A stretch of DNA of 64,000 nt from Allobranchiibius sp. CTAmp26 (lineage in GTDB: Bacteria; Actinomycetota; Actinomycetes; Actinomycetales; Dermatophilaceae): assembly GCF_017565405.1 (NCBI RefSeq), contig NZ_JAGEKR010000024.1, positions 1-64,000 on the forward strand. Direction: 5' to 3'. The notes under the pieces were generated by a model, which ran no database searches, had not been told where the DNA came from, and was given only the letters and a program-made list of their open reading frames with translations. Positions 141 to 15,371 of the stretch are shown piece after piece. The position numbers were made by a program, and so were the translations under genes. Each line of letters starts with the position of its first letter. The stretch's first letter is position 1.

Positions 141-1832
141 CTACCTCCACGCGGACTTACACTCTTTCCCTACACGACGCTCTTCCGATCTTGCACCGGA
201 GATGGGCGTCACTGCGCCAGCGGAGGAAACCCGGTACCACTGGTAGGTCAGGCTCACCGGCGCCGGTCCCCAGGCGCCGGGCGTTGCGGTCAACGTGTAA
301 CCGACCTTCACTGACCCGGACACCTTCGGCGTCACCGGGACGAGCGTGCCGTAGGCCACCGCGCTGGTGAGGGCGCTCTCGCGGTCCGCGGTGGTATACC
401 CGGACTCACTACCTGTCACCACCACCTTCAACTGGGCACCCGCATCAGCAGGTGAAAGCGCATACGTCGAACCCTTCGCGCCAGCCACCACCGTGGAGAT
501 ACCACCAACAACCCGAGACCACTGGTACGACAACGCAACCGAACCCGGACCCCACGTACCAGGATCAACACTCAACGAAGACCCCACCTTCGTCGTTCCC
601 GACACCGTGACAGTCCCAGGACTCAGGGTGCCAAGCGGAGTGACTGCGGTGCTGGTGTCTGATGGCGAACTGGACCCGACCGCATTCGAGGCGATCACAG
701 TGAATTGATATGCCACGCCGTTCCTCAGCCCCGCGACAGTGGCTGAGGTGCCTCGGGTCTTAACGGTGACGCCGTCTGGGATCGAAACAACCGTGTAGCT
801 GGCGATGGGCGCTCCGCCATCGTTGGTGGGCGGATTCCAGGAGACGGTGGCGGACCCGTCGCCTGCCGTTGCCGACGGTGCGTCGGGCTTGGCCGGAACG
901 TGTAGCGACCCATCGTTGACCGTGAAGTTGGCGGTGGATAGGTCCAGGGTGTGGCTGGTTGGGCCCACGGCGTTCGTTGGAACCTTTTGAATGCTGCCGT
1001 TCGCCCGGTAAATCGCAACGTTCCCACCCGCATCCGTGACGTAGACACTATCGAGTGTGGACGTGCCGTTGGGCCATGTCGTCGGAATGGTCTGGGTGAG
1101 GGTCCCAGTCAGCGGAATCCCGCCGCTACGCGCTATTTGGTGTTGACCGCCAAGGGAGTCCGAGTAAATGAACAAGACCTGACTAAGCGCGCCAGAGTCA
1201 TCAGAAGCGCTGTAGTGCAGCGTCTGAATCTGACCCGGAGTCACTGGCGACAGATCTGCGCTGAACGAGTTCAGCACCGGCGTCGTCACATCGGCGCTGC
1301 TTCCATCGACCGTGAAGTTGGCGGTGGATAGGTCCAGGGTGTGGCTGGTTGGGCCCACGGCGTTCGTTGGAACCTTTTGAATGCTGCCGTTCGCCCGGTA
1401 AATCGCAACGTTCCCACCCGCATCCGTGACGTAGACACTATCGAGTGTGGACGTGCCGTTGGGCCATGTCGTCGGAATGGTCTGGGTGAGGGTCCCAGTC
1501 AGCGGAATCCCGCCACTACGCGCTATTTGGTGTTGACCGCCAAGGGAGTCCGAGTAAATGAACAAGACCTGACTAAGCGCGCCAGAGTCATCAGAAGCGC
1601 TGTAGTGCAGCGTCTGAATCTGACCCGGAGTCACTGGCGACAGATCTGCGCTGAACGAGTTCAGCACCGGCGTCGTCACATCCGCAGCCGCAATTGCGCG
1701 GGGTGGTGTGACGAAGAACGCACCAAGCAGAACGAGCAATGCGGCTATGGCACGCCCAGCCCAGGAAACATCTCGTCTGTGCGTTAGCACGCGTGCAGTG
1801 GGGCGAAGTGCCACGGTTCCCTCTCGGAGCAT
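141..1832 (-). CDS. Secreted surface protein with duplicated N-terminal domain, FN3 and Ig-like repeats (3' end artefactual)
   Basis: The ATG at 1830-1832 has a GGAGGG ribosome site at 1838-1843. Residues 1-48 form a signal peptide: an Arg-rich start, a hydrophobic core (AIAALLVLLGAFFV), then a probable cut after AIAA. Two almost identical 130-residue modules beginning DVTTPVLNSFSADLSP follow. Next comes a fibronectin type III domain (from about PAKPDAPSATAGDG), then 95-residue Ig-like repeats containing LSYQWSRV and LTYQWYRV. Such proteins are usually cell-surface or secreted adhesion or binding proteins; no catalytic domain is visible. The last 16 residues (RSEERRVGKECKSAWR) are translated Illumina adapter, so the stop at 141-143 is false and the true gene continues left. 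It sits at the outer end of a genomic island. Substrate or partner is unknown. Confidence 0.75.
   Translation of the reverse strand: MLREGTVALRPTARVLTHRRDVSWAGRAIAALLVLLGAFFVTPPRAIAAADVTTPVLNSFSADLSPVTPGQIQTLHYSASDDSGALSQVLFIYSDSLGGQHQIARSGGIPLTGTLTQTIPTTWPNGTSTLDSVYVTDAGGNVAIYRANGSIQKVPTNAVGPTSHTLDLSTANFTVDGSSADVTTPVLNSFSADLSPVTPGQIQTLHYSASDDSGALSQVLFIYSDSLGGQHQIARSGGIPLTGTLTQTIPTTWPNGTSTLDSVYVTDAGGNVAIYRANGSIQKVPTNAVGPTSHTLDLSTANFTVNDGSLHVPAKPDAPSATAGDGSATVSWNPPTNDGGAPIASYTVVSIPDGVTVKTRGTSATVAGLRNGVAYQFTVIASNAVGSSSPSDTSTAVTPLGTLSPGTVTVSGTTKVGSSLSVDPGTWGPGSVALSYQWSRVVGGISTVVAGAKGSTYALSPADAGAQLKVVVTGSESGYTTADRESALTSAVAYGTLVPVTPKVSGSVKVGYTLTATPGAWGPAPVSLTYQWYRVSSAGAVTPISGARSEERRVGKECKSAWR
159..191. 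other. Illumina TruSeq read-1 adapter embedded in the assembly
   Basis: These 33 bases are identical to the standard Illumina read-1 adapter (start ACACTCTTTCCCTACACGAC, end GCTCTTCCGATCT). Read on the minus strand it gives EERRVGKECK, a familiar contamination peptide in protein databases. It lies inside a tandem repeat of a surface-protein gene, where short-read assemblers commonly break. By comparison with the neighbouring repeat unit, it stands in for about 19-20 residues of the repeat. Confidence 0.97.
919..1682 (-). repeat. 390-bp near-identical tandem duplication inside the surface protein gene
   Basis: Bases 919-1292 and 1309-1682 match at an offset of 390 bases. The only difference I found is G at 1125 versus A at 1515. 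The unit encodes 130 residues, so reading frame is kept. Such low divergence means either a recent duplication or ongoing gene conversion; an assembly duplication is also possible given the nearby adapter. Confidence 0.9.
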
Positions 1833-2723: not shown

Positions 2724-5489
2724 ATGAATGCGCATCACGGGGACGACGCTCGGCTGGCTGCCGAGGCACGGGCGCGGGTGGTGATCGATCGCCAGCTGAC
2801 CGATGCCGGATGGGTCGTCCAGGACAAGAAGGCGTTGAACCTGTTCGCCACTCAGGGCGTCGCCTGCCGCGAGGTCCCGATGAAGTCGGGGCACGGTCGC
2901 GCGGACTACCTGCTGTACGTCGACCAACGCGTCGTCGGGGTGATCGAGGCCAAGCCGCTGGGCACGACGCTCAGCGGGGTGGAGTGGCAGTCCGCGACGT
3001 ATGCGGAGGGCCTGCCCGCCCACGTACGGCTCAAAGCACTGACGCGCGATGGCCGACTGCCGTTCGTGTTCGAGGCGAGTGGCAGCGAGACGCACTTCAC
3101 CAACGGCTACGACCCCGACCCACGGGCGCGGCAGCTGTTCGGGTTCCCGCAGCCGGCGACGCTTGCGCGCATCATCCGGGACGCTGACACCGCCCCGGAC
3201 GCACCCACGTGGCGGGCGAAAGTGCGGGATCTTCCGGAGTTGGACATGTCCGCGCTGCGCCCCGCGCAGATCACCGCGATCACCGGCGTCGAGCAATCGC
3301 TGGCCGCGCAGCACTTCGATCGGTCCCTGGTGCAGATGGCGACTGGCGCTGGCAAGACGTACACCGCGGTCACGCTCGCCTACCGGTTGCTCACGTTCGG
3401 TGGGTTCAAGCGGATCCTGTTCCTGGTCGACCGCAACAACCTCGCCGACCAGACCATCGCGGAGTTCCAGAACTACCGCACGCCCGGCGATGGGCGCCGG
3501 TTCACCGAGATCTACAACGTCGACAAGCTCACCCGCTCCGGCATGCTCGCCAGCAGCAACGTCGTCATCTCCACCATCCAACGCGTGTACACGGCGCTGC
3601 AGGGCCAGGACGTCAGCGCCGAGGACGACCCGGGCCTGGACGACTTCGTGCCCGACTCCCCCGTCACCGTCTCCTACAGCGCGCAGCTCCCGCCGGAGAC
3701 GTTCGACCTGGTCGTCGTCGACGAGGCGCACCGCTCGATCTACGGCGTATGGCGCGGCGTGCTGGAGTACTTCGACGCCCACGTGGTCGGCCTGACCGCG
3801 ACGCCGGGCAAGCAGACGTTCGCGTTCTTCCGGCAGAACCTGGTCTCGGAGTACACCTATCCGCAGTCGGTCGCCGACTGCGTGAACGTGGATTTCAGCG
3901 TCTACAGGATCCGCACCGAGATCTCCGAGCGCGGCGGGTCGATCGACGCCGGCACATTCGTGCCAAAGGTCGACCGGCGCACCCGCACGCAACGCCTCGA
4001 GGCCTTGGAGGAGGACCTGGAGTACACCCACAAACAGCTCGACCGCGCGGTCACCGCCAAGTCGCAGATCCGGCTCGTGCTCGAGACGTTCCGCGACCGC
4101 CTCTTCACCGAGATCTTTCCCGGCCGCTCGACCGTGCCGAAGACGCTGATCTTCGCCAAGGACGACGCGCACGCCGAGGAGATCGTCACCACCGCGCGCG
4201 AGGTGTTCGGCAAGGGCAATGCCTTCGCCGCGAAGATCACCTACAACGCGCGCGACCCCAAGGGACAGCTGCAGGCATTTCGCACGTCGCCCAGCCTGCG
4301 CATCGCCGTCACCGTCGACATGATTGCCACGGGCACCGACGTGAAGCCCCTGGAGTGCGTGTTCTTTATGCGCGACGTGCTCTCGGCGCAGTACTTCGAG
4401 CAGATGAAAGGCCGCGGTGCCCGCACCATCGCTCCCGCCGACTTCCAGTCCGTGACCCCGGACGCGTCCGGGAAGGACCGATTCGTGATCGTCGACGCGG
4501 TCGGAGTCACCGAGCACGACTTCGTCGACCCACCCCTGAACCGGGAGAAGGGTGTCTCGCTCAAGAAGCTGCTCGACAAGGCCGCCACGCTGTCCCTCAC
4601 CGAGGGCGAGACCGCCACCCTCGCGTCCCGCCTGGCCAAGCTCGAGCTCGACCTCACCCCCGCCGAACGTGACGAGCTCGACGGTGTCGCCGGCGGATCC
4701 GTACGCGGCATCGTCCGCGGCCTGGTCGACGCGGTCGACCCCGATGTCCAAGCCACAGCGACTCAGGGGCAGGCCGATCCGGCCGAGGCGATCCAACGGC
4801 TCCTCGACGAGGCGGCCAAACCGCTCGCCGCTAACCCTGAGCTGCGCGGCCGCATACTCGAGCTGCGCGCCACCCACGACCGTGTGATTGACGAGGTGAA
4901 CGCCGACGCGCTGATCTCAGCCGGCGGCGTCGTCGACACCGGCCGGGCGCGCTCCGTCGTCGAGTCCTGGGAGGCGTACCTCGAGCAGCATCGCGACGAG
5001 ATCACCGCGATCCAGCTGCTCGGTGAAGCCCGCGTCCGACGGATCAACTTCGCCGACATCCAGGAGCTCGCCGACCGGATCAGCAGGCCGCCGCATAACT
5101 GGACGCCCGACATCATCTGGAGCGCGTACGAGACGTTGTACATCGACCGCGTGCGCCACAGTGACCGGCACACCCTCACCGATCTGGTGTCGCTGTTGCG
5201 CTATACCGTCGGCGCCGACGACGAACTCGTTCCGTACGCCGACCGCGTGCGCGAGCAGTACGTTGCGTGGCTCGCCCAGCAAGAGCAAGCCGGCACGAAC
5301 TTCACTGAGGCACAAAGGTGGTGGCTGGACCGGATGGTCGAAGTGATCGCGAACTCCGCTGGCATCACCGCCGAGGACCTCGACGACGCACCATTCACCG
5401 AGCGCGGTGGCGTCGACGGTGCGCTGCGCGACCTCGGCGACCAGGCGGCCGACCTGCTGGAGAACCTGAACGCCGAACTCACCGCATGA
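2724..5489 (+). CDS. hsdR: Type I restriction enzyme, R (endonuclease/translocase) subunit
   Basis: HsdR is the motor and nuclease subunit of a type I restriction complex (R2M2S1). It translocates unmodified DNA with ATP and cuts it. At 921 residues it is typical of the shorter EcoAI/EcoEI-like R subunits. The N-terminal nuclease has D61 (GRADYLLY) and E75-A-K77 (VIEAKPLG). The helicase core has the Walker A motif MATGAGKT (K211), the DEAH box at 333-336 and the TATPG motif. The C-terminal third is helical, as expected for contact with HsdM. The ATG at 2724 is the first in frame with full homology, though no strong ribosome site is seen. Its stop overlaps the hsdS start (ATGA), so the two are translationally coupled. 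Confidence 0.95.
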   Translation: MNAHHGDDARLAAEARARVVIDRQLTDAGWVVQDKKALNLFATQGVACREVPMKSGHGRADYLLYVDQRVVGVIEAKPLGTTLSGVEWQSATYAEGLPAHVRLKALTRDGRLPFVFEASGSETHFTNGYDPDPRARQLFGFPQPATLARIIRDADTAPDAPTWRAKVRDLPELDMSALRPAQITAITGVEQSLAAQHFDRSLVQMATGAGKTYTAVTLAYRLLTFGGFKRILFLVDRNNLADQTIAEFQNYRTPGDGRRFTEIYNVDKLTRSGMLASSNVVISTIQRVYTALQGQDVSAEDDPGLDDFVPDSPVTVSYSAQLPPETFDLVVVDEAHRSIYGVWRGVLEYFDAHVVGLTATPGKQTFAFFRQNLVSEYTYPQSVADCVNVDFSVYRIRTEISERGGSIDAGTFVPKVDRRTRTQRLEALEEDLEYTHKQLDRAVTAKSQIRLVLETFRDRLFTEIFPGRSTVPKTLIFAKDDAHAEEIVTTAREVFGKGNAFAAKITYNARDPKGQLQAFRTSPSLRIAVTVDMIATGTDVKPLECVFFMRDVLSAQYFEQMKGRGARTIAPADFQSVTPDASGKDRFVIVDAVGVTEHDFVDPPLNREKGVSLKKLLDKAATLSLTEGETATLASRLAKLELDLTPAERDELDGVAGGSVRGIVRGLVDAVDPDVQATATQGQADPAEAIQRLLDEAAKPLAANPELRGRILELRATHDRVIDEVNADALISAGGVVDTGRARSVVESWEAYLEQHRDEITAIQLLGEARVRRINFADIQELADRISRPPHNWTPDIIWSAYETLYIDRVRHSDRHTLTDLVSLLRYTVGADDELVPYADRVREQYVAWLAQQEQAGTNFTEAQRWWLDRMVEVIANSAGITAEDLDDAPFTERGGVDGALRDLGDQAADLLENLNAELTA

Positions 5490-6727
5490 GCGAGGTGCCG
5501 TTCGGCTGGTCGGAGGCAGCTCTAGGTGACGTCTGCAAAATAGTCTCTGGTGCGACCCCGAAGACAGGTGTACGAAGTTTCTGGGGCGGCCCCATCGCTT
5601 GGCTTACACCGAATGACATGTCCCGCGATCGATCCCAGACGCTGCAGGGCGGCGACCGTTCATTGACGCATGCCGGCCTCGCCTCGTGCAGCACCCGGCT
5701 CGTCCCGGCGGGATCGGTTATCGTCAGCTCGCGCGCACCTATCGGATATGTCGCTATTGCGGGTCGAGAGATGTGCACAAATCAGGGCTGCAAGACGGCC
5801 ATACCTCCCGATTTTCTGGACTCGAAGTATCTCTACTGGTACTTGTTGGCCGCAAAGCCAGATCTGGATTCGCGCGCCAGCGGTACGACGTTCAAAGAGA
5901 TCTCTGCAAAGCGGTTCGCGGAGACGCAGATTCGTTGGCCCGGCCTCTCCGAGCAACGGCGAATTGTTGAGATCATCGAAGACCACTTCTCCCGTCTCGA
6001 CGCAGCGGCGAATTATGCGTCCGCTGCTCAGCAGCGAACGAAGACCATGGTGTCCTCCGCCCGACAACTACTCGTCGCTGCTGCAGCTTGCAACTCAACG
6101 ACCTACACCCTGGGCGAACTTGCATCGGTCGGCACTGGGACGACGCCGCAGCGCTCTGAACCTCGGTACTACGCGGGAGGCAACATCCCGTGGATAACCA
6201 GCGGCGACTTGTCACAGGGTGACCTCCTTGAGGCCAATCGGTTCGTTACCGACGCAGCACTCGCCGAGACGAGCTTGAAGTTGTATCCGACGGGGACGCT
6301 GCTGATTGCCATGTACGGCGAAGGAAAGACCCGAGGTACGGTCGCCGAGCTGGGCATCCCAGCTACGACAAACCAGGCCTGCGCAGCTGTCGACGTTCGG
6401 GACGAAGCCCTGAAGCCGTGGATCCGCCTCGTCCTCGAAGCCAACTACTCGGCTCTGCGACGACTTGCAGCCGGTGGTGTGCAACCAAACCTGAATTTGA
6501 GTCTGGTCCGGGCGATCCAAATCCCCATCCCTGACAACGCGGACCGGGAACGGCTGATGGCTTCCACCACCCAGGTCATCGGAGGGGCTTCCTCGATTCG
6601 GGGCGAACTAGAACCCTTTGTTGACCGCGTCGCAAAGTTGCGGAGTGCAGTCTTTGCGGCTGCTTTCAGCGGCAGGCTCGCCGGCCGTAGCACCGACGAC
6701 GAAGTGATCGAGGAGGTGGCCGGGTGA
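5486..6727 (+). CDS. hsdS: Type I restriction enzyme, S (specificity) subunit
   Basis: HsdS recognises the bipartite DNA target and directs both methylation and cleavage by HsdM and HsdR. The 413 residues contain two target-recognition domains. The first runs from about 7 to 150 (LGDVCKIVSGATPK, then the conserved central stretch FKEISAKRFAETQI). The second runs from about 205 to 345 (LGELASVGTGTTPQ, then GGVQPNLNLSLVRAIQIPIP). Helical spacers separate and follow them (SEQRRIVEIIEDHFSRLDAA). The start at 5486 overlaps the hsdR stop by four bases. The stop overlaps the next gene (GTGA), extending one polycistronic message. Target specificity cannot be read from the sequence. Confidence 0.93.
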   Translation: MSEVPFGWSEAALGDVCKIVSGATPKTGVRSFWGGPIAWLTPNDMSRDRSQTLQGGDRSLTHAGLASCSTRLVPAGSVIVSSRAPIGYVAIAGREMCTNQGCKTAIPPDFLDSKYLYWYLLAAKPDLDSRASGTTFKEISAKRFAETQIRWPGLSEQRRIVEIIEDHFSRLDAAANYASAAQQRTKTMVSSARQLLVAAAACNSTTYTLGELASVGTGTTPQRSEPRYYAGGNIPWITSGDLSQGDLLEANRFVTDAALAETSLKLYPTGTLLIAMYGEGKTRGTVAELGIPATTNQACAAVDVRDEALKPWIRLVLEANYSALRRLAAGGVQPNLNLSLVRAIQIPIPDNADRERLMASTTQVIGGASSIRGELEPFVDRVAKLRSAVFAAAFSGRLAGRSTDDEVIEEVAG

Positions 6728-7635
6728 TACCGGACTTCCAGACGCTCATGCGGCCGGTCCTTGCTCTCCTGGCGGACGGTGCCGCCCGCCGATCCCGAGA
6801 TGTCAAGGACGTCATGGCCGAGGAGCTCCGGCTCACGGAGACCGAGCGAGCTGAGCTTCTGCCGAGCGGACGGCAACGCACCATCGACAACCGAGTCGGA
6901 TGGTCGCTCACCTACCTCTCGCAGGCCGGCTTCGTCACACGGCCCAGCCGCGGGCACGTCCTGATCACGGACGACGGTCGTGCGGCTCTCAAAGAAAACC
7001 CGTCGCATATTGACATGAAGACCCTCGAGGCGTACCCGGCCTACCTCGAGTTCCGCGACCGGACGCGCGACAAGACCTCGCCCACGAGCTTCGCCGTCCA
7101 CGACGAGCCGAGTGAGGCGACTCCCAGCGACCTCATCGAGCAAGCTCTCTCGACGAACCGAGCGGCGGTCGAGGGTGAGATCCTGCAAGCGGCGCTGGCA
7201 CTGTCCCCCACCGGGTTCGAGGAACTGGTCATCCGGCTCCTGGCGGGCATGGGATATGGCACGGCTGGATCGGTCGAGCGCACCAGCGCATCCGGGGACG
7301 CGGGTGTTGACGGCATCATCAGCCAGGACCCGCTTGGCCTCGATCGCATCTACGTTCAGGCGAAGCGGTACGCCGAAGATCGGACCATCGATCGGCCCAG
7401 GATCCACGAGTTCGCCGGTGCCCTCCTCGGAAAGCAGGGCGACAGAGGCGTCTTGATCACAACCTCGCGGTTCTCGAGTGGCGCCATCCAGGAAGCCGAG
7501 CGGATCAACGCACGCATCGAGCTGATTGACGGTCGACGGTTGGCCGAGCTGCTCGTCGCCTATGGCGTGGGCGTGCAGGCCGATCAGACCGTGACGTTGC
7601 ACCGGCTCGACGAAGACTTCTTCGAAAGTCTGTAG
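6724..7635 (+). CDS. mrr: Mrr-like restriction endonuclease
   Basis: The protein has 303 residues and the two-domain build of Mrr. An N-terminal winged-helix region spans about 1-95 (M.R.VL..L.DG then RTIDNRVGWSLTYLSQAG). A C-terminal PD-(D/E)xK nuclease domain spans about 160-290. Visible catalytic-type residues are E166/E167 (GFEELVIRLLAGMGYG), D196 (GDAGVDGII) and Q212-A-K214 (VQAKRY), the QxK variant common in Mrr. Mrr proteins usually cut DNA carrying foreign methylation (type IV). The GTG start overlaps the hsdS stop by four bases, so it belongs to the type I operon. It may either guard against modified phage DNA that hsdRMS cannot cut or act as a further nuclease of the complex; the second idea is speculative. 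Confidence 0.88.
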   Translation: MIPDFQTLMRPVLALLADGAARRSRDVKDVMAEELRLTETERAELLPSGRQRTIDNRVGWSLTYLSQAGFVTRPSRGHVLITDDGRAALKENPSHIDMKTLEAYPAYLEFRDRTRDKTSPTSFAVHDEPSEATPSDLIEQALSTNRAAVEGEILQAALALSPTGFEELVIRLLAGMGYGTAGSVERTSASGDAGVDGIISQDPLGLDRIYVQAKRYAEDRTIDRPRIHEFAGALLGKQGDRGVLITTSRFSSGAIQEAERINARIELIDGRRLAELLVAYGVGVQADQTVTLHRLDEDFFESL

Positions 7636-7712
7636 TGCTTTGGGCTCCACCCAATCTGGTGCCGGACGCGCGCCAGCGCGCAGCAAACGCTTGCGCCAAC
7701 CGAGTCCGACTC

Positions 7713-7741
7713 TGTTCGTTTTGTTCGTTTCGAGCTAGTAT
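7713..7741 (+). promoter_or_regulatory. Possible promoter for the toxin-antitoxin pair
   Basis: A TAGTAT hexamer (7736-7741) lies seven bases before the ATG at 7749. A weak upstream element (TGTTCG, 7713-7718) sits 17 bases away. A tandem GTTCGTTTTGTTCGTTT lies between and could bind the antitoxin. The spacing suggests a leaderless transcript, common in actinobacteria. Confidence 0.4.
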
Positions 7742-7748
7742 TAGCGCC

Positions 7749-8240
7749 ATGCCGACCCCCACGAAGACCGCCGCGCGGCACGCTGAGACCTATCTCCCGT
7801 CGTCGGAAGACGAGGCGTCAGCGTCGTCGCTGGCCAATTTCCTGCGGGTGGGCGACGGTGGCCTTGCCGCACTCATCGCACCGGACGGCACGACGATTGC
7901 GCTGTCAGCCCAGGTTCACCGCGTTCTGGTGCAGGTCGCTGACGCCATGGCACAGGGCATGGGCGTGACCGTCGCACCCCATAACGCCATGCTCACTACC
8001 CAGGAAGCCGCCGACTTCCTTGGGATCTCGCGGCCGACCCTGGTGCGCATCATTGATCGCGGCGACCTGGAGGCAGTGAAGCCGGGTCGGCACCGGTACG
8101 TCGCTCTGCAGGATCTGATCGCCTATCAAGAGCGCGTGGCTGTGCAACGGCGCCAGAGTCTTGACGAGATGGCGCGCGATGCCGAGAGCGCAGGTCTTTA
8201 CGACCTACTCGATGGTCAGCCACCGCTGAAGCGCCATTGA
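7749..8240 (+). CDS. HTH (excisionase-type) DNA-binding protein, probable antitoxin
   Basis: The protein has 163 residues. The C-terminal half holds a MerR/excisionase-type helix-turn-helix (LTTQEAADFLGISRPTLVRI, then KPGRHRYVALQDLIAYQER, about residues 80-125). The N-terminal half (about 1-75) has no clear family. It is followed four bases later by a PIN-domain protein, the usual order antitoxin-toxin. The upstream in-frame GTG at 7635 would add residues overlapping a promoter-like stretch, so the ATG at 7749 is preferred. The likely role is to bind its own promoter and neutralise the PIN toxin. Binding to the toxin is inferred from gene order only. Confidence 0.8.
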   Translation: MPTPTKTAARHAETYLPSSEDEASASSLANFLRVGDGGLAALIAPDGTTIALSAQVHRVLVQVADAMAQGMGVTVAPHNAMLTTQEAADFLGISRPTLVRIIDRGDLEAVKPGRHRYVALQDLIAYQERVAVQRRQSLDEMARDAESAGLYDLLDGQPPLKRH

Positions 8241-8244
8241 ACCA

Positions 8245-8817
8245 ATGACGTTCGAGGTCCTGCTTGACACGTGTGTCCTCTACCCGCCGACGCTGTGCGA
8301 CACCCTGCTGCGTATCGCCGAGAACGGAGCGTTCGAGCCGCGCTGGTCGGCTGAGGTTCTGGTCGAACTGGAGCGCAATCTGGCCACGATTGAGTCCGTT
8401 GGTCGCGAAGGCGCCCACGCACGGATCACAGCGATGACGGGTGCGTTCCCGAACGCAACCGTCGCGGCATACGAGCAGTTGCTCGATGACATGCCTGGCC
8501 ATCCTGACGATGCTCACGTCATGGCCGCAGCGATCGTGTCTCGGTGCCAGGTCATCGTCACAGCGAACCTGAAGCACTTTCCTGGGCCCGAACTCGGGCA
8601 GTGGGGTTTGACCGTCAGCCATCCGGACGCCTTCCTGCTCGATCAACTCGAGTTGCACCCGCGAGAAACCCTCCTCGCCCTGCAGAATCAGTCGCGCGAG
8701 TCATCCCGCCCGTCACTGTCGACACCCCAACTGCTGGCATCGCTCCGGCGGACCGGGGTACCCCGATTTGCCGCGGCGGTCGCACGCCTACGAAGCCAAG
8801 GAGTTCACGATGACTGA
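8245..8817 (+). CDS. PIN-domain ribonuclease, probable VapC-like toxin
   Basis: The protein has 190 residues. The PIN fold shows the acidic residues expected for metal-dependent RNA cleavage: D8 in VLLDTCVLYPP, glutamates in EVLVELERNL, and DD in HPDDAHVMAAAI. It also has the late strand IVTANLKHFP, where the family often has VTfNlkDF. About 55 C-terminal residues follow the PIN domain. The ATG at 8245 is four bases after the antitoxin stop, and the 3' end overlaps hsdM by eight bases. A toxin locked into the hsd message could enforce retention of the restriction operon or add a second, abortive layer of defence. RNA target is unknown. Confidence 0.85.
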   Translation: MTFEVLLDTCVLYPPTLCDTLLRIAENGAFEPRWSAEVLVELERNLATIESVGREGAHARITAMTGAFPNATVAAYEQLLDDMPGHPDDAHVMAAAIVSRCQVIVTANLKHFPGPELGQWGLTVSHPDAFLLDQLELHPRETLLALQNQSRESSRPSLSTPQLLASLRRTGVPRFAAAVARLRSQGVHDD

Positions 8818-10279
8818 TGCACGCCGCCTGGTCGACAAACTCTGGTCGTACTGCGATGTGTTGCGCGACGACGGAGTCGGTGTCATCGAGTACACCGAGC
8901 AGCTGACCTACCTGCTGTTCCTGAAGATGGCGCAAGAGCGGGCCACCCGGAAGCTCGCGCCTGAGCAGGTCGTGCCCAAGGAGTACTCGTGGCAAACCCT
9001 GCTCGACGCCCAGGGCGACCGCCTGGAGTTTGAGTACACGCGGATCCTCAACGGCCTCGCCCGTGAAGACGGTGTCATCGGCACGATCTTCCGTAAGGCG
9101 CAGAACCGGATTCAGGACCCAGCGAAGCTGCGCCGGCTCATCGTCGACCTGATTGACAAGGAGAACTGGTCGCAGTCGGGCACCGACATCAAGGGCGATG
9201 CCTACGAGGACCTCCTCTCCAAGGGGGCGTCCGATAAGGGCTCCGGGGCCGGCCAGTACTTCACGCCTCGGGCTCTGATCGAGGCGATCGTCGACGTCGT
9301 ACAACCGACGGTCGACGACACGGTCGTCGACCCGGCCTGCGGCACCGGTGGCTTCCTCTTGGTTGCTCATGACCACGCCTCGCGCGGCGCCGAGTCGATG
9401 ACCCCGACGCAGCGTGACCACCTCCGCGACGAGTTCGTGGCGGGCTACGAACTTGTCGACGGCACAGCCAGATTGGCCGCGATGAACCTGCTGCTGCATG
9501 GCATGGGAACCTCCAACGGGGACTCGCTCATCGAGGTGCGCGACTCCCTGATCGCAGACCCGGGCCGCCGCTGGTCCGTCGTGCTGTCGAACCCGCCGTT
9601 CGGCCGGAAGTCATCGCTGACCATGGTCGGTGCGGATGGTCGGGAGGCCCGGGAGGACCGCGAGATCGAACGCCAGGACTTCGTTGCAACCACGAGCAAC
9701 AAGCAGCTGAACTTCGTCCAGCACATCGCCACGATCCTCAACACGAACGGTCGCGCGGCCGTCGTCCTGCCGGACAACGTCCTCTTCGAGGGCGGCGCCG
9801 GCGAGAACATCCGCCGCAAACTGCTCGCGGATTTCGACCTGCACACCATGCTCCGGTTGCCGACCGGACTCTTCTACGCCCAGGGCGTGAAGGCCAACGT
9901 GTTGTTCTTCGACAAGAAGGTCGCCCGACCCGGGCAACCCTGGACCGAGCGGCTTTGGGTCTACGACCTGCGCACTAACAAGCACTTCACCCTCAAGCAG
10001 AACCCGCTGCGCCGTGCGGACCTCGACGAGTTCGTTGCTGAGTACACCGCGACCGAGCGCGCCGAGTCTGAACGCTGGAAGTCGTTCACGTACGACGAGA
10101 TCATCGCCCGCGACAAGGCTAACCTCGACATCACCTGGCTCAAGGACGATTCGCTCGAGGACCTCGACAACCTGCCGTCGCCGGACATCATCGCCCGCGA
10201 GATCGTTGAAGACCTCACTGCCGCCCTCGCCGAATTCGAAGCAGTGGCAACGTCTTTGGAGGAGCAGCTGCGCAGCTGA
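8810..10279 (+). CDS. hsdM: Type I restriction enzyme, M (adenine methyltransferase) subunit
   Basis: HsdM transfers a methyl group from S-adenosylmethionine to adenine in the target chosen by HsdS. At 489 residues it is of normal length. An N-terminal helical domain (1-140) precedes the methyltransferase core with the SAM-binding motif DPACGTGG (174-181) and catalytic NPPFG (261-265). GAGQYFTPR lies ahead of the core, as in the family. The start at 8810 is chosen because AAGGAG lies at 8798-8803 with a six-base gap; an upstream ATG at 8768 would bury that site. Unusually, hsdM is separated from hsdS by the mrr-like and toxin-antitoxin genes. No clear terminator follows. Confidence 0.95.
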   Translation: MTDARRLVDKLWSYCDVLRDDGVGVIEYTEQLTYLLFLKMAQERATRKLAPEQVVPKEYSWQTLLDAQGDRLEFEYTRILNGLAREDGVIGTIFRKAQNRIQDPAKLRRLIVDLIDKENWSQSGTDIKGDAYEDLLSKGASDKGSGAGQYFTPRALIEAIVDVVQPTVDDTVVDPACGTGGFLLVAHDHASRGAESMTPTQRDHLRDEFVAGYELVDGTARLAAMNLLLHGMGTSNGDSLIEVRDSLIADPGRRWSVVLSNPPFGRKSSLTMVGADGREAREDREIERQDFVATTSNKQLNFVQHIATILNTNGRAAVVLPDNVLFEGGAGENIRRKLLADFDLHTMLRLPTGLFYAQGVKANVLFFDKKVARPGQPWTERLWVYDLRTNKHFTLKQNPLRRADLDEFVAEYTATERAESERWKSFTYDEIIARDKANLDITWLKDDSLEDLDNLPSPDIIAREIVEDLTAALAEFEAVATSLEEQLRS

Positions 10280-10704: not shown

Positions 10705-11508
10705 CTAGTCAGACGCCGCGGACTCGGCGATACGTCTGGAAACTACCGACTTGAGGCGCCGCTCAGCGAAGATCGCGGACAGTGCCCGGACCCGGGACCG
10801 GCTGTCTGCGGCAGAGACGTCCACTCCCAAGTAGCCCTCGTCCAACCATCGCTTCATCGTGTGATCAAAAAGGACTTGATTGGAAGATCTCACAAGGAAG
10901 TCGCACGCCGCCAAACTGTCCTGGATTGCCGCAAGGTCGAGAGCGACTCCGTATTGAGCCTTGCCAAGGTCATCGATTCGGAGGGTTCCGTGCGCTCGGG
11001 TATCAAACCTTCCGGACCAGTGGACCGATGCATGACGGATCGCGCACACCGAGTCAAATGTCGCTACCGCCTTCCCAAGGGCCGTTTCTTCAGCTATTTG
11101 ATATTTCGTGAATCGCTTGAATTGCTTAGCGATAACTCCTTTCGAGCTAAAAAGCACGCCCTCGACCAACCCATACCCAGCTTTTCCCGTCGCGAATGTG
11201 CGAACCGCAGAGAAAGGAATCGATTCCAACGCGACGTTGCGAGCTACCCATGGGCACGTATTTGCGAGATCGGCGAAAACCGTCCGAAAGTAGTTCTCAG
11301 TAGATCCAACCATCTGCGCAACGAGCATCTGGCCCAGCGTCACGTCGTGATCCCCACCCATGAGCGATGTCGACAACCTGTTCATAAGAATGACGTCATC
11401 GATCCACTGAGAAATCGCAGACTCTCGAGAGATTTGAACCTCACGAACACAAGCTCGGATATCGATCTGCGAGGCGACGCCCGAATAGTTCACCACGACA
11501 TCACTCAT
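10705..11508 (-). CDS. HEPN-domain protein, candidate RNase effector of a defence cassette
   Basis: The protein has 267 residues and no family I can name with certainty. It carries an R158-x4-H163 motif (AIRHASVHW), the signature of HEPN ribonucleases. Helices around STENYFRTVFADLA (69-82) and FDSVCAIRHASVHW (151-164) resemble the two core HEPN helices. Its start overlaps the end of the upstream ATPase gene by eight bases, so the two proteins are made together. Many HEPN proteins in defence islands cut RNA when a partner ATPase senses infection; that role is inferred here. Codon composition is visibly less GC-rich than the hsd genes, suggesting separate acquisition. A non-nuclease HEPN (scaffold only) is possible. 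Confidence 0.75.
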   Translation of the reverse strand: MSDVVVNYSGVASQIDIRACVREVQISRESAISQWIDDVILMNRLSTSLMGGDHDVTLGQMLVAQMVGSTENYFRTVFADLANTCPWVARNVALESIPFSAVRTFATGKAGYGLVEGVLFSSKGVIAKQFKRFTKYQIAEETALGKAVATFDSVCAIRHASVHWSGRFDTRAHGTLRIDDLGKAQYGVALDLAAIQDSLAACDFLVRSSNQVLFDHTMKRWLDEGYLGVDVSAADSRSRVRALSAIFAERRLKSVVSRRIAESAASD

Positions 11509-13183
11509 AGATGAACTCTTCGGCCACGGATTTTATCTGAGCTGCGCGTTTTGGGCCTATATATTCCGCGGCCAGCAATTTTACATTCTCTTCGTCGGTC
11601 AGGATATCCTGGACCGTACTTACTTTTCCTGCAGCCGTGATCCGATCCAGTTGCTTTTGGCTGATTGGCAATTTCTCAATGCTTGTCGACAGCAACTCCT
11701 CATAAATCGAGGCATCAGTCAGGGGCGCCCCGCAATGCGAGCAGAACCGCGCCTCGGGTATCTCCCTAGGAGTGCCACACCGCTGGCATGCCGCCATGTC
11801 GAGCTTGCAGCGGCTCAAAAAATCCTTACCCAGGAGACTGGCAAGTGTTCGGCGAACGCGCGCTGCGGACGATTCACGTCGAGCGAGGCCGTCAATAGCC
11901 TCAGCAATCGACGGGTTGCGCCCAAGTGCCATGGCACCATGGGTCAGCAGAAGCGAGTAATGAATCACCACCTGCCTGAAGGACTTCGGGCCCATGCTGA
12001 GATTGCTGGAACGCCGCAGAACACCTGCGTACTCCAGCAAGCCCAAAATGCGGTCAACCTCTGCCGGGACCGGCTCTTGCAAGAGGACCGACACGACTTT
12101 AGTTGTGCCTGGTCGGCCGGAATTATACGTCGATATAGCATCGATACAAGCGCCGACCAGATCGCTTCCAACTGCAACGAAATTTTTGTATCTCGGCAGT
12201 TTCTCTTCTAGTGACAGAAAGACTTTGATGGTCGCCGCCGCCGAATCTTCAATTGCTGAATCGCACAGTTGAGTGGTGTTCTTGAGGGAACCATCTTCAT
12301 CTTCTTCTAGGAATTGCGACAACATGGAAAGCAGATTCCTCGGGAGCCCAAAACTTGCGAGGGCTAGATATTCGAGTGCACCGCGGCGCCCTCGAAGCCG
12401 CGCCAACGATTCTGCATCGAGTCGCTTTTCGCACATTTCACTCATCATTGGTATGAAGTCGGGATCAGAGGGATCAAGCCAAACGTCCGAAACTTGAACG
12501 TCATGCCCGACTTGGAAACGAGGGGTATAGGTCGTCACGCCGGGGTAGACGGCGGCTTTGGCGCTAACCACTCTGGATCGCAGATTGCCGAAGATCTCGA
12601 AAAACTCGCGCTGCTGCTCCGGAGAGAAGGCATGAGCTGCGTCATCTAGGAGCAAGACCACGCGCCGCCTGCCAGCAGTTGCAGAGACGCGTTCTAGTAT
12701 CTCGAGGATCTCCGTCAGCGTGAAGTCGCTCGGCGGAGCTTGGTCCACGCGGCGACGCTCGACGGCATCAGCAACTGTCGTGGCGAGCTTCAGTCGGACC
12801 GCCGGTGCTTCGGCTAGCTCCAGTCCAAGAGCGTCTGTCGCTTGCGACAGTCCTCGAAGGATCAGAGCAAGGACCCACTGCCGAAAAAAGGCAAGAGCAC
12901 TTGGATCTCGGCGCAGCTCAGGCTCAAGCGAGAGTGACTTGGCGTAGTTGACGTATATCGGCAACGCAACGGCTTCGTCTTGGAGCTGATAACGGGCTAA
13001 CCGAAGATAGGTGCTCTTCCCGCTGCCTCGGGGGCCGATCAGGAGTCTCTGGCCGGGGCTCTTCAACTTACGCAACAGGCTCTCTTCGCGCGCGGTGAGG
13101 ATCGTGCACCGCTCGAGTTCCTGCCGATTCATATCCTCGGCCCTGTATCCCAGGTCGATCAGGTCGTCAGAAGTGGCGCTCAC
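11501..13183 (-). CDS. P-loop (ORC/CDC6-like) ATPase with C-terminal zinc ribbon, candidate defence sensor
   Basis: The protein has 560 residues. Walker A is GPRGSGKST (50-58) and Walker B is VVLLLDD (175-181), so this is an active-looking AAA/STAND-type ATPase. A helical and winged-helix region follows (around 265-410: FGLPRNLLSML, LLEYAGVLRRSSN). A zinc ribbon has C466, C469, C481 and C484 (CQRCG, CSHCG). The last 50 residues resemble a helix-hairpin-helix element (YIGPKRAAQIKSVAEEF), which could contact DNA. The GTG start at 13183 has AAGGA about seven bases upstream. It is coupled to the HEPN gene by an eight-base overlap. It may be the sensor or switch for the HEPN effector; no target is evident. 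Confidence 0.8.
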   Translation of the reverse strand: MSATSDDLIDLGYRAEDMNRQELERCTILTAREESLLRKLKSPGQRLLIGPRGSGKSTYLRLARYQLQDEAVALPIYVNYAKSLSLEPELRRDPSALAFFRQWVLALILRGLSQATDALGLELAEAPAVRLKLATTVADAVERRRVDQAPPSDFTLTEILEILERVSATAGRRRVVLLLDDAAHAFSPEQQREFFEIFGNLRSRVVSAKAAVYPGVTTYTPRFQVGHDVQVSDVWLDPSDPDFIPMMSEMCEKRLDAESLARLRGRRGALEYLALASFGLPRNLLSMLSQFLEEDEDGSLKNTTQLCDSAIEDSAAATIKVFLSLEEKLPRYKNFVAVGSDLVGACIDAISTYNSGRPGTTKVVSVLLQEPVPAEVDRILGLLEYAGVLRRSSNLSMGPKSFRQVVIHYSLLLTHGAMALGRNPSIAEAIDGLARRESSAARVRRTLASLLGKDFLSRCKLDMAACQRCGTPREIPEARFCSHCGAPLTDASIYEELLSTSIEKLPISQKQLDRITAAGKVSTVQDILTDEENVKLLAAEYIGPKRAAQIKSVAEEFIYE

Positions 13184-13931
13184 GGCGTCATCCTTCCATC
13201 TGGTTGGAACAACGATGGCGGAGCCATGCGGCGTGCGGTCCTATCAACTCACATTCCCAGTCGTTCGCACGCGTTCCCGACCGACTCGCATCACAGCACC
13301 GAGAGCGCGCGAGATGCGTCTGACCGCTGCGTAGGGTCGCGTGACGCTGGTGCTGGGACCCGAACAGGCCAGTGGGTGATCTGGTTGACGGCGATCCCAG
13401 CCTGCATCAAGCAGCAACGCACACCTGCGAACCGCACGTGAGTCCGCTCGTGGCCGTCTCTGAGGACAACGGCGTCCATTTCGCTTCCTCTGTACGCTAT
13501 CTCGATGTCCAGCTAACCACCTCAAGCGTGCGTCTTCGCCGATGACCGCGTTAACGCCGTGCGCCAACTCGTTGGCAGGATCAGGCTGAGAGGTGTGAGG
13601 GTGCTAGAAGACGGCACGTTTGGCCACGGCGTATGAAGCCCCGCTCATTCAGACTGCGGATCTCCTCGAGCGCACGAGAGGTGCCTACATCAGCTACCTA
13701 CGGACGGCCGATGCTCTGTGGTCGGGATAGGCGCACAGTGGTATCGGCACTAGTGAAGCCACGCTCGTTGACGTCTCGTCGACACAAACTTCTGTGGCTT
13801 TGGCGCGTCTGGCGCACGCGGCGGGGTATACGTTCGCCGATCGCCGCGAAGTCGACTGTCCCACTTCGCCGATTATGCCGATGCAGCAGGATACTTAGTG
13901 GATTGGCTGGCTAGAATTTCTGCGCACAGTG
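13184..13931. other. Spacer between the ATPase gene and the larger HEPN-like gene
   Basis: The 5' region of the ATPase gene occupies the left end. Small frames at 13244-13567 and 13291-13479 (minus) have no recognisable motif. The right half holds a degenerate helix-turn-helix-like frame (13618-13905), described separately. I see no RNA gene or insertion-sequence end. Confidence 0.4.
13618..13905 (+). pseudogene. Possible remnant of an XRE/HTH antitoxin-like gene
   Basis: One plus-strand frame reads AYEAPLIQTADLLERTRGAY then ISYLRTADALWSG and a stop (TAG, 13729-13731). It resumes in the same frame with GTSEATLVDVSSTQTSVALA and RLAHAAGYTFADRREVD. The second part resembles the recognition helix and following helices of XRE-type antitoxins (GTS.aTL...., then ALARLAHAAGYTF). 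There is no valid start and there is an internal stop, so if real it is decayed. The resemblance is by eye only. Confidence 0.3.
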
Positions 13932-15371
13932 TCACGCCGAGCCGGAATTGGCGCGCACCTCCCGGGCGAGCGCCCGGATGACCGTTTCCTTTAAGACACT
14001 GAGTTGGCCGAGAGGCTCTCCACGGTCGTCTACGGAGCGCATGGCCCAGTTGTACCAGCCCTTCGAAACCTGCCTGCTGTCGCCAGGAACGAGGCGCCCG
14101 TAGTGTCCAGTTGCATTCCTCCGCGCATACCAGATCCGGACCTGCTCATACAGGGACCTGCCAGGCCCTGCGGCACCGTCTTGAGAAGCTGTCGTTGACG
14201 AGCGAAGGTACTCGTAAACCCGAGGAGCTGCAGCGCTCGTGGTGGCGTTTGGATCGCCCGGCCATGGGGAGCCATTAAGCAGCGTGACCACCTGACCCGG
14301 TGCGATGCGAGCACCCGAAAGTAATTCTAGAATGGACCAGTACCTGAAGTAGCGGGCATCCACGGAGGCTTCAGGAATTGCCTCCGCAAGCAGTTCGTAC
14401 GCAAGCCGGATGATTGGGTCTTTCTCCGATGCGCGTACTTGGTCGAGCAGGAATCGCTGGTCTTCTCCCGCGATGAATCCACCCGCGAGATTGCCTAAGT
14501 ACTGGGCTCCAGGTAGTGAGAGCTTGGTCAACACTCCGTCATTCGACTGGCGTTGCTGAATGGCAACGACAACCGGACGTCCCGCCGCCCCTCTATTAGC
14601 GCTAAGCAATGCAAGTGCTAGTCGCACGCTTTCCTCGGTCATACGGCCGGCGTCCTCGTATGTGACTGCCCAAACGGCGGGAAATACGGCGGCACAAAGT
14701 GGATAGGCGGATGACGCCTGAGACCTCCATGGCTCGACGGAGGCGATGTCGCCAGGAGCCCAACCCAAGTCGCGCACAACTTGGTTGACGATCAGTCGGT
14801 ACTCCTCCATTCCTAAGCTAGGAGATAATGGTTGTATGGACCAGCCCGGGAGTTTTGCCGGCTGGGTAAGAAGGAGGCCTTCGACCAGGATTACTACACG
14901 GTGCTCGATTGTTCCAGCACCTACTTTACCCAGGGGTGTGCCGTACATTTCCCCCTGCTTGGCAAGCAGTTCCGCGAGCACCTCTTCGCTGGCCTTGGGC
15001 GATGATATCGCTGAGTTGAGCGTGGCCGGTCGACTAGAGGAAATCTGTCGTAAGATGTTTTCCTCAGGGCTTTTGATCTGCGTAACCATGACGATCGCTT
15101 CCGTACCCAAGGACAAGCCAGACGGCACTGTGGTCGTGCCGCGGCCGTTGCCGTCTATAACGATCGGGGTAGACAAGCACCAAGCTGAATCGACAGCGTC
15201 GACGTAGCCGAGATCCACTTGAAGCGTTCTGCCGCTCAGGTCTGCGCAGTTGGCGATATGGATGGTCAGTGGCTGCCCATCGGTAAGTATCTCCGGTTCA
15301 AGCCATGCCATGGGAGACACATCCCGGGGGTGGCCCTCGCCATCACCTCCGTCAGCGCCTGATGTGTCCAC
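13932..15371 (-). CDS. Large protein with C-terminal HEPN motif (ApeA-like), candidate anti-phage effector
   Basis: The protein has 479 residues. The N-terminal 330 residues are mainly strands and helices with no family I recognise. The C-terminal part looks like an ApeA-type HEPN domain: YFRYWSILELLSG (341-353) as first core helix, then R418-N-x3-H423 (ARRNATGHYG), the RNxxxH form found in many RNA-cutting HEPN proteins. ApeA-type proteins act in abortive infection; that activity is inferred. The GTG at 15371 is the longest start; an ATG at about 15311 is an alternative. It lies on the same strand as the ATPase and HEPN genes, 748 bases upstream of them. It could be a third component or an independent single-gene defence. 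Confidence 0.65.
   Translation of the reverse strand: MDTSGADGGDGEGHPRDVSPMAWLEPEILTDGQPLTIHIANCADLSGRTLQVDLGYVDAVDSAWCLSTPIVIDGNGRGTTTVPSGLSLGTEAIVMVTQIKSPEENILRQISSSRPATLNSAISSPKASEEVLAELLAKQGEMYGTPLGKVGAGTIEHRVVILVEGLLLTQPAKLPGWSIQPLSPSLGMEEYRLIVNQVVRDLGWAPGDIASVEPWRSQASSAYPLCAAVFPAVWAVTYEDAGRMTEESVRLALALLSANRGAAGRPVVVAIQQRQSNDGVLTKLSLPGAQYLGNLAGGFIAGEDQRFLLDQVRASEKDPIIRLAYELLAEAIPEASVDARYFRYWSILELLSGARIAPGQVVTLLNGSPWPGDPNATTSAAAPRVYEYLRSSTTASQDGAAGPGRSLYEQVRIWYARRNATGHYGRLVPGDSRQVSKGWYNWAMRSVDDRGEPLGQLSVLKETVIRALAREVRANSGSA

Follow-up and report, generated by a model that had tools for sequence, protein, structure and literature searches.

The hsdS-hsdM junction of a type I restriction operon in Allobranchiibius as a candidate exchange site for defence genes

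Introduction

Toxins and toxin-antitoxin (TA) pairs inside type I restriction-modification (RM) operons are already on record, PrrC and DarTG2 being published cases. Here we analyse a type I operon of Allobranchiibius sp. CTAmp26 with the gene order hsdR-hsdS-mrr-HTH-PIN-hsdM, in which an Mrr-like nuclease gene and a predicted TA pair (a helix-turn-helix, HTH, gene and a PIN-domain gene) lie between hsdS and hsdM; this place is called the S-M junction, and genes lying in it cargo. The stretch of DNA analysed, referred to as the window, covers positions 1-64,000 of contig NZ_JAGEKR010000024.1 and holds the operon at 2724-10279. Genomes and loci used for comparison are cited, where needed, by G and L numbers.

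In the RRDM island of enteropathogenic Escherichia coli (EPEC), the TA system DarTG2 sits within a type I RM operon, between hsdS and hsdR, at an insertion site that its authors call a potential recombination hotspot (PMC12255303). The island, as described there, and the window have in common a complete TA pair within a type I operon and a small regulator acting (in the window, by prediction) on direct repeats. They differ in that a single regulator, RptR, heads the EPEC operon, whereas the window has the order hsdR-hsdS-cargo-hsdM, a predicted toxin of the PIN type, an internal motif that goes with the TA pair, and relatives with many different cargos at one junction. A second parallel is EcoprrI, in which PrrC, an RNA-cutting toxin encoded in the type I operon, is described as a second line of defence, a role that is predicted for the PIN protein of the window. 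However, PrrC is an ABC-ATPase-HEPN protein reported to be silenced by the Hsd complex, whereas the PIN protein has an HTH partner of its own.

Other genes have been described in similar places. HEPN families, Abi2/AbiF and ApeA among them, are listed as embedded in R-M operons (PMC3710099), the GmrSD-like TgvAB is reported within the type I operon of the Vibrio cholerae island VPI-2 (PMC11411939), and GmrSD is noted near type I genes, with the Campylobacter RloF between hsdS and hsdR (PMC4619093). TgvAB and the Campylobacter rlo genes resemble the window in that a modification-dependent nuclease (in the window Mrr, as judged by its domains) is embedded in a type I operon. Both rloF and tgvAB are placed between hsdR and hsdS in these accounts, whereas the insertion in the window lies between hsdS and hsdM, and its nuclease is Mrr-like and joined by a TA pair.

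The pair itself recalls those of the VapBC type in its PIN fold, acidic residues, small upstream DNA-binding partner and predicted autoregulation. Unlike them, it has an excise-type HTH partner and a PIN protein nearest to the RSP_2648 family, of 190 aa as against about 130 aa for the VapC chains that it matched, with toxicity as a prediction. The literature searched, in which few preprints were covered, yielded no account of an HTH-PIN pair at the hsdS-hsdM junction. What the present case adds is another junction, other toxin families, a lineage that the named PIN relatives suggest to be actinobacterial, and an apparent supply of a promoter for the methylase by the TA pair.

Gene map of the operon

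The six genes lie on the same strand, each with a reading frame open throughout (Table 1). The gene identities, order and overlaps proposed in a sequence-only reading of this DNA were exact to the base, and domain searches agreed on every gene. The overlaps comprise 4 nt between hsdR and hsdS (5486-5489), 4 nt between hsdS and mrr (6724-6727) and 8 nt between PIN and hsdM (8810-8817); 4 nt separate the HTH stop from the PIN start, and 113 nt the mrr stop from the HTH start. The Pfam assignments provide the gene set of a type I RM system (HsdR, HsdM, and HsdS with two recognition domains), and the nuclease carries both Mrr_N and Mrr_cat, as a type IV Mrr enzyme does.

Table 1. Features of the type I operon and its predicted regulatory gap (positions in the window)
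Feature	Position	Strand	Evidence
hsdR, type I restriction subunit (EcoEI-like), 921 aa	2724-5489	+	Pfam ResIII 1.6e-34, EcoEI_R_C 3.5e-33
hsdS, specificity subunit, 413 aa	5486-6727	+	Pfam Methylase_S 1.4e-41 in two stretches (two target-recognition stretches)
mrr-like nuclease, 303 aa, cargo position 1	6724-7635	+	Pfam Mrr_cat 8.1e-36, Mrr_N 6.2e-30; PADLOC mREase_IV 6.1e-75
Gap from mrr to HTH, 113 nt; predicted internal promoter/operator region	7636-7748	+	Sole sizeable gap among the six genes
Tandem motif GTTCGTTTTGTTCGTTT, predicted operator of HTH-PIN	7714-7730	+	TTCG-type; two exact 9-nt direct repeats at 7713-7730
HTH (excise-type), 163 aa, cargo position 2a, predicted antitoxin/autoregulator	7749-8240	+	Pfam HTH_17 8.1e-15; NCBIfam excise 2.8e-12, above cut-off
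PIN-domain protein, 190 aa, cargo position 2b, predicted RNase toxin	8245-8817	+	Pfam PIN_3 5.6e-8, above Pfam cut-off
hsdM, N6-adenine methyltransferase subunit, 489 aa	8810-10279	+	Pfam N6_Mtase 1.5e-65, HsdM_N

Two other interpretations of the locus were rejected. Membership in the MADS system fails on equivalog scores (104.6 of 720 bits for MAD2 and 35.4 of 400 bits for MAD5); PADLOC does list mad1, mad2 and mad5 in the operon, at 30.8, 173.8 and 168 bits, but its best type I models outscore these with 614.7 bits for HsdM and 232.4 bits for HsdS. Misassembly of the operon is contradicted by genome G183, where HTH-PIN meets hsdM in the same way (PIN 87% and HsdM 93% identical), in spite of an adapter sequence at the start of the contig.

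Cargo at the S-M junction of related operons

HsdM was sought in genomes of the family (found in 28 of 186, E <= 1e-80), the order (16 of 396, E <= 1e-150) and the class (30 of 394), and 62 matches were taken with their flanks, one of which fell under the score cut-off, leaving 61 loci. An operon was taken as complete when hsdR and hsdS lay in range upstream of hsdM on the same strand, an upstream-only rule that makes the terminal position of hsdM partly true by construction; cargo played no part in the choice of loci. Complete operons were present at 45 of the 61 loci, with hsdR ahead of hsdS in all 45, and neither hsdS nor hsdR was found downstream of hsdM at the 16 others. In line with the expectation that hsdS and hsdM are normally adjacent, the two lie side by side in the 15 cargo-free operons among the 45, the other 30 having genes between them. 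The intervening genes, as predicted, are co-oriented with the operon in 70 of 72 cases, the two exceptions being open reading frames of 33 and 8 aa.

Directly after hsdS, 23 of the 30 cargo operons have a nuclease-like gene, of the Mrr, DUF4357-cluster, DUF5655 or GmrSD kind (the last at locus L163). We infer that the DUF4357 and DUF5655 proteins are nucleases: GIY-YIG matched below cut-off in two members of the DUF4357 cluster (L179, L191), and a NucS-like domain, also below cut-off, in four of the five DUF5655 proteins scanned. The first gene is otherwise a DUF3800 gene (L153), Abi_2 (L137), one gene without a family, or the toxin-side gene itself. At the other end, a recognised toxin family accounts for the gene adjoining hsdM in 14 of the 30: HTH-PIN in five, a PF01850 PIN protein with a 285-aa partner in four, Abi_2 in two, and PIN_10 (with DUF433/MerR), Fic and HEPN_Apea in one each. 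Among the incomplete operons, one carries Doc (of the Fic family) with the antidote doc_partner, one the second (PF01850) PIN pair (L184), and others HTH-PIN. The two sides occur in several combinations, HTH-PIN being found beside Mrr, DUF4357-cluster and DUF5655 neighbours and the second PIN pair beside Mrr, DUF4357, DUF3800 or no neighbour.

A part of all cargo, 47 proteins of which a few came from incomplete operons, was run against Pfam. The curated cut-off was passed by 28, all in nuclease-, toxin- or antitoxin-type families, DUF4357, DUF5655 or, once, DUF3800; no transposase or metabolic gene occurred among these 28. Neither NCBIfam nor PADLOC assigned the cargo proteins of 131, 204, 138 and 102 aa to a family, and the 285-aa PIN partner drew a single weak PADLOC row (E 0.021).

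Several of these proteins deserve separate mention. Cargo of 204 and 131 aa without an assigned family precedes hsdM at L154 (10050-11040), L157, L160, L153 and L170, and the 204-aa protein looks PD-(D/E)xK-like by eye. Small cargo proteins of 121 and 138 aa at L156 (9822-10184) and L159 (10664-11077) show, again by eye, a ParB-like pattern, with a sub-threshold ParB_N match in one of them. The 285-aa partner and PF01850 PIN protein at L147 (8909-10187, minus strand) and L149 (9376-10654, plus strand) have near-identical 5' regions, judged by eye, that share a CCCCCG/CGGGGG inverted repeat, while the genes upstream differ.

Exchange of cargo at the hsdM start

The HsdM proteins of G093, G185 and G183 share 93-94% identity with that of the window, and these near relatives differ in cargo: a different PIN pair in G093, no toxin module in G185, and HTH-PIN in G183. 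Nucleotide identity to the window was computed for 19 relatives in ungapped 50-nt bins on either side of the hsdM start. It rises across the start from 0.34 to 0.86 in G093 and from 0.38 to 0.90 in G185; in G183, with the same pair as the window, it is high on both sides (0.86 and 0.90). In all, 13 of the 19 relatives show at least 0.74 after the start and at most 0.42 before it. Five were uninformative without gaps, having a different N-terminal length; with gaps, they gave 0.53-0.56 over the 200 nt before hsdM (shuffled control 0.54) and 0.78-0.80 over the 300 nt after. Among near relatives with differing cargo, homology thus extends upstream as far as the start codon of hsdM and no further.

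The toxin-side state, assigned by hand, requires 22 changes on an HsdM tree of 57 rows (47 labelled, 12 kinds), as compared with a mean of 25.1 and a minimum of 22 for shuffled labels; 23 changes were counted in a fuller first tree. On the nuclease side, 16 changes (42 labelled rows) compare with a shuffled mean of 22.5 and minimum of 18. Toxin-side cargo shows little phylogenetic signal by the shuffled-label count, and the turnover is therefore a lower-bound statement.

The form of the hsdM start bears on how insertions are accommodated. It is commonly ATGACTGA or ATGA/GTGA, which gives the preceding gene its stop, and could be called in 44 of the 45 operons. The overlap with hsdM measures 8 nt in 14 operons (preceded by cargo in 10 and by hsdS in four) and 4 nt in nine (four and five, respectively). 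Because ATGACTGA holds the stop and the same overlap occurs where hsdS precedes hsdM, the 8-nt overlap appears to be a property of the hsdM start, not one special to PIN. Insertions seem often to keep the coupling at both ends, with the first cargo gene overlapping hsdS in 24 of the 30 cargo operons and the last overlapping hsdM in 19.

Such ready-made stops fit the view that the junction is a neutral hot spot, merely tolerant of insertions, in which defence genes are simply what circulates nearby: overlaps of 8 and 4 nt would form readily from ATGACTGA and ATGA/GTGA, and a very fast turnover, near that of shuffled labels, is what it would lead one to expect. We consider this decidedly unlikely, in view of the lack of transposase and metabolic cargo among the Pfam-assigned proteins and of the co-orientation and the overlaps at both ends, figures that all come from this one junction.

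Repeated capture of the HTH-PIN pair

The PIN protein was sought in the genome of the window, where it has a single copy, in the 186 family genomes (matches in 41, E <= 1e-10), in the 396 order genomes (63, E <= 1e-12) and in a species-level genome collection (67 loci). Neighbourhoods were compared at 123 loci, some of them near-identical. An HTH gene lies immediately upstream in 81; 33 of the 42 loci without one are from Paracoccus, where no HTH relative was found, and several other misses are overlapping frames excluded by the distance rule. An hsdM relative follows PIN immediately in six of the 123 (the window, G183, G184, G161, G087 and, as a remnant, G018); the 67 loci from the species-level collection include no such case.

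With G193, from another family, and G012 added, HTH-PIN stands directly before hsdM in eight genomes including that of the window, in five of them (that of the window, G183, G161, G087, G193) within whole operons. The insertion of a TA pair at the S-M junction proposed in the sequence-only reading is borne out, and the same order recurs elsewhere, in three genomes more or less broken. The arrangement is more than chance, as it is seen in eight genomes from at least three PIN lineages.

The hsdM-linked PIN proteins form five groups in a tree of 75 rows (seven linked), and a single clade is rejected by the approximately unbiased (AU) test (p 8e-8). A more careful tree of 33 rows (five linked), a smaller set picked after the 75-row result that omits the long-branched G193 and the hsdM-remnant G018, gives three groups (AU p 1.6e-4). 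A single ancient insertion of the pair is thus rejected by both sets. Many inner branches of the PIN trees are weak; the trees nevertheless indicate that HTH-PIN entered the junction at least three times, and probably five.

The PIN and HTH proteins

With 130.6 bits against a cut-off of 170, the PIN protein is a relative, not a member, of the NCBIfam RSP_2648 family, and it has no PADLOC match. Residues D8, E41 and D89, which we take to be the catalytic acids of PIN domains, are invariant across 27 aligned members. A sequence search for solved relatives of the PIN and HTH proteins returned nothing useful. The structure model of the PIN protein (predicted local distance difference test, pLDDT, 92.4) scores Z 12.2 against 8wmm_G (PcrIIC1) and against a TA complex from Mycobacterium tuberculosis, and Z 10-12 against VapC structures, the latter matches spanning residues 1-142 and saying little of the part beyond; Foldseek pairs it with Shigella flexneri VapC at 6.9e-4 (template-modelling score by query 0.42). 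Model and alignment together indicate that the PIN fold and its acidic residues are intact. From its family, the protein is predicted to be an RNase toxin, and the HTH protein to be its antitoxin and autoregulator. Identity with the anticodon nucleases PrrC or RloC was rejected, the protein being a 190-aa PIN protein and not an ABC-ATPase fused to HEPN.

A control of the PrrC type could still be envisaged, in which the type I complex holds PIN inactive and lets it go once restriction is blocked by a phage protein, as is reported for PrrC in EcoprrI (PMC3710099, PMC3874165, PMC12707154); failure of restriction as the trigger had been suggested in the sequence-only reading. This control is extremely improbable here: PIN comes with a conserved partner gene, and the pair is free-standing in most loci seen, so that the Hsd proteins are not needed.

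An addiction role would explain why complete pairs are captured, since loss of the operon would free the toxin and kill the cell, stabilising a costly restriction system. Three kinds of complete TA-type pair at the site agree with it (HTH-PIN, DUF433/MerR with PIN_10, and Doc with doc_partner in one incomplete operon), as does the retention of the motif of free pairs, described below, by most embedded copies of HTH-PIN. On the other hand, Abi_2 and HEPN_Apea occur there without a recognised antitoxin, so the whole site is not explained, seven cargo operons have no toxin-side gene, and HTH-PIN persists in G184 and G018 although the surrounding hsd genes have decayed. We therefore regard addiction as unlikely.

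The predicted regulatory region upstream of HTH-PIN

The 113-nt gap contains, shortly upstream of the HTH gene, the motif TTCGTTTTGTTCGTTT. It recurs exactly upstream of six of the eight embedded HTH genes and 10 of 80 free-standing ones, and within three mismatches upstream of six and 34, respectively (40 of 88, as against none of 88 in the reversed control). As the window supplied the motif, its own match is by construction; L027 and L167 represent one and the same place. In the genome, the 17-base form of the motif has one exact copy and one site with three mismatches (reversed control 2). A TAnnnT hexamer, TAGTAT, noted by eye at 7736-7741, stops 7 nt short of the HTH start codon, and a consensus scan of the gap gave no terminator.

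Since the motif is also found with free-standing HTH-PIN pairs, the pair probably brings its own operator and promoter, with hsdM downstream on it. Gene packing and the conserved motif in the sole real gap suggest two transcription units, hsdR-hsdS-mrr and HTH-PIN-hsdM, with which read-through from hsdR is compatible; the single message for all six genes assumed in the sequence-only reading is not what they point to.

The value of the insertion might then lie in the promoter, the antitoxin operator giving hsdM a stress-responsive, autoregulated control like that by C proteins. The position of the motif and the coupling of hsdM to PIN by overlap would suit this, and so would the PF01850 pair of L147 and L149, which keeps its 5' region behind two different upstream genes. 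It is quite unlikely as the explanation of the site, however: hsdS, equally needed for methylation, is left in the unit that starts with hsdR, operons with no cargo or with a nuclease alone manage without such a promoter, and the unrelated toxins found there have toxicity in common, not a known regulator.

Neighbouring features in the window

Beside the operon, three minus-strand genes at 10705-15371 possibly form another defence unit. One encodes a 267-aa protein without a Pfam match, in which a HEPN-like R-x4-H pattern was seen by eye; its gene overlaps by 8 nt that of an ORC-CDC6-like ATPase, in which a zinc ribbon scores below threshold. The third encodes a 479-aa protein, also without a Pfam match. 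Near the contig start, an exact 33-base sequence at 159-191, presumably an Illumina adapter, lies inside a minus-strand open frame, and the first ~200 bases are suspect as an assembly artefact. The gene at 141-1832 (minus strand), secreted-protein-like and with two near-identical tandem repeats of ~390 bp noted by eye, runs into this end.

Discussion

The explanation that we favour, giving it as a whole an even chance, is that, in type I operons of the R-S-M order, back-up defence genes are exchanged at the S-M junction. Its structural part, an exchange site, we put forward with strong confidence; this nature of the site, with its many different cargos, had escaped the sequence-only reading. 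Its basis, at the level of sequence, is the gene map, the conserved site, the unrelated and interchangeable cargos, the end of homology at hsdM, the separate captures of HTH-PIN and the shared motif. The functional part, back-up defence with release of the toxin on loss of the antitoxin, seems to us about evenly balanced. In the window, one overlap couples the Mrr-like nuclease gene to hsdS, and another couples the HTH-PIN pair, predicted to regulate itself, to hsdM. The HTH protein would bind the TTCG repeats and repress its own promoter, which may also feed hsdM. The type I enzyme would cut unmodified DNA and Mrr DNA with foreign modification; when an infection stops host gene expression, the antitoxin would decay and PIN would cut RNA and halt growth. 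Release of the toxin would thus follow from antitoxin loss and not from direct sensing of failed restriction, ordinary antitoxin loss being the simpler trigger for a toxin that is paired with a predicted antitoxin and retains the motif seen with free pairs.

Several observations weigh against this explanation. A toxin at hsdM is common but not the rule, as nine of the 30 genes before hsdM have no recognised family and seven operons are nuclease-like only. Three of the eight HTH-PIN-hsdM genomes are damaged or split: in G184 hsdM is broken and hsdR only a remnant, in G018 hsdM is a remnant, and G012 is split over two contigs inside PIN. The embedded copies of G087 and G193 lack a close motif (5 and 8 mismatches), as do the upstream regions of 48 of the 88 HTH genes. 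The consensus scan of the gap gave no sigma-70-like promoter, which counts against an internal promoter unless it departs from that consensus. The cargo starts, and hence the overlaps, come from a simple purpose-made gene finder. A permissive site near mobile defence genes could yield much of the pattern without functional coupling.

A more specific reading goes beyond the exchange site that we favour. The S-M junction would be an evolved plug-in site, in which the toxin module heads the transcription unit of hsdM, loss of the repressor in infection both frees the toxin and raises the methylase, and unrelated modules (three PIN kinds, Fic/Doc, Abi_2, HEPN) are swapped at the hsdM start, largely independently of the nuclease slot coupled to hsdS. 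We regard it as possible but doubtful; if true, such a site would give combinatorial, three-layer defence operons.

According to a 2012 synthesis, immunity loci carry toxins without typical antitoxins, for which immune proteins may act as inhibitors (PMC3506569). At the junction described here, complete pairs, predicted antitoxin included, occupy a single defined position, as DarTG2 does in EPEC, so that control of the toxin need not pass through the restriction enzyme. The relatives whose HsdM proteins are 93-94% identical while their cargo differs offer a natural comparison, and the junction may itself serve as bait: the gene before hsdM is a candidate toxin or defence gene, as for the proteins of 131, 138 and 102 aa without a family.

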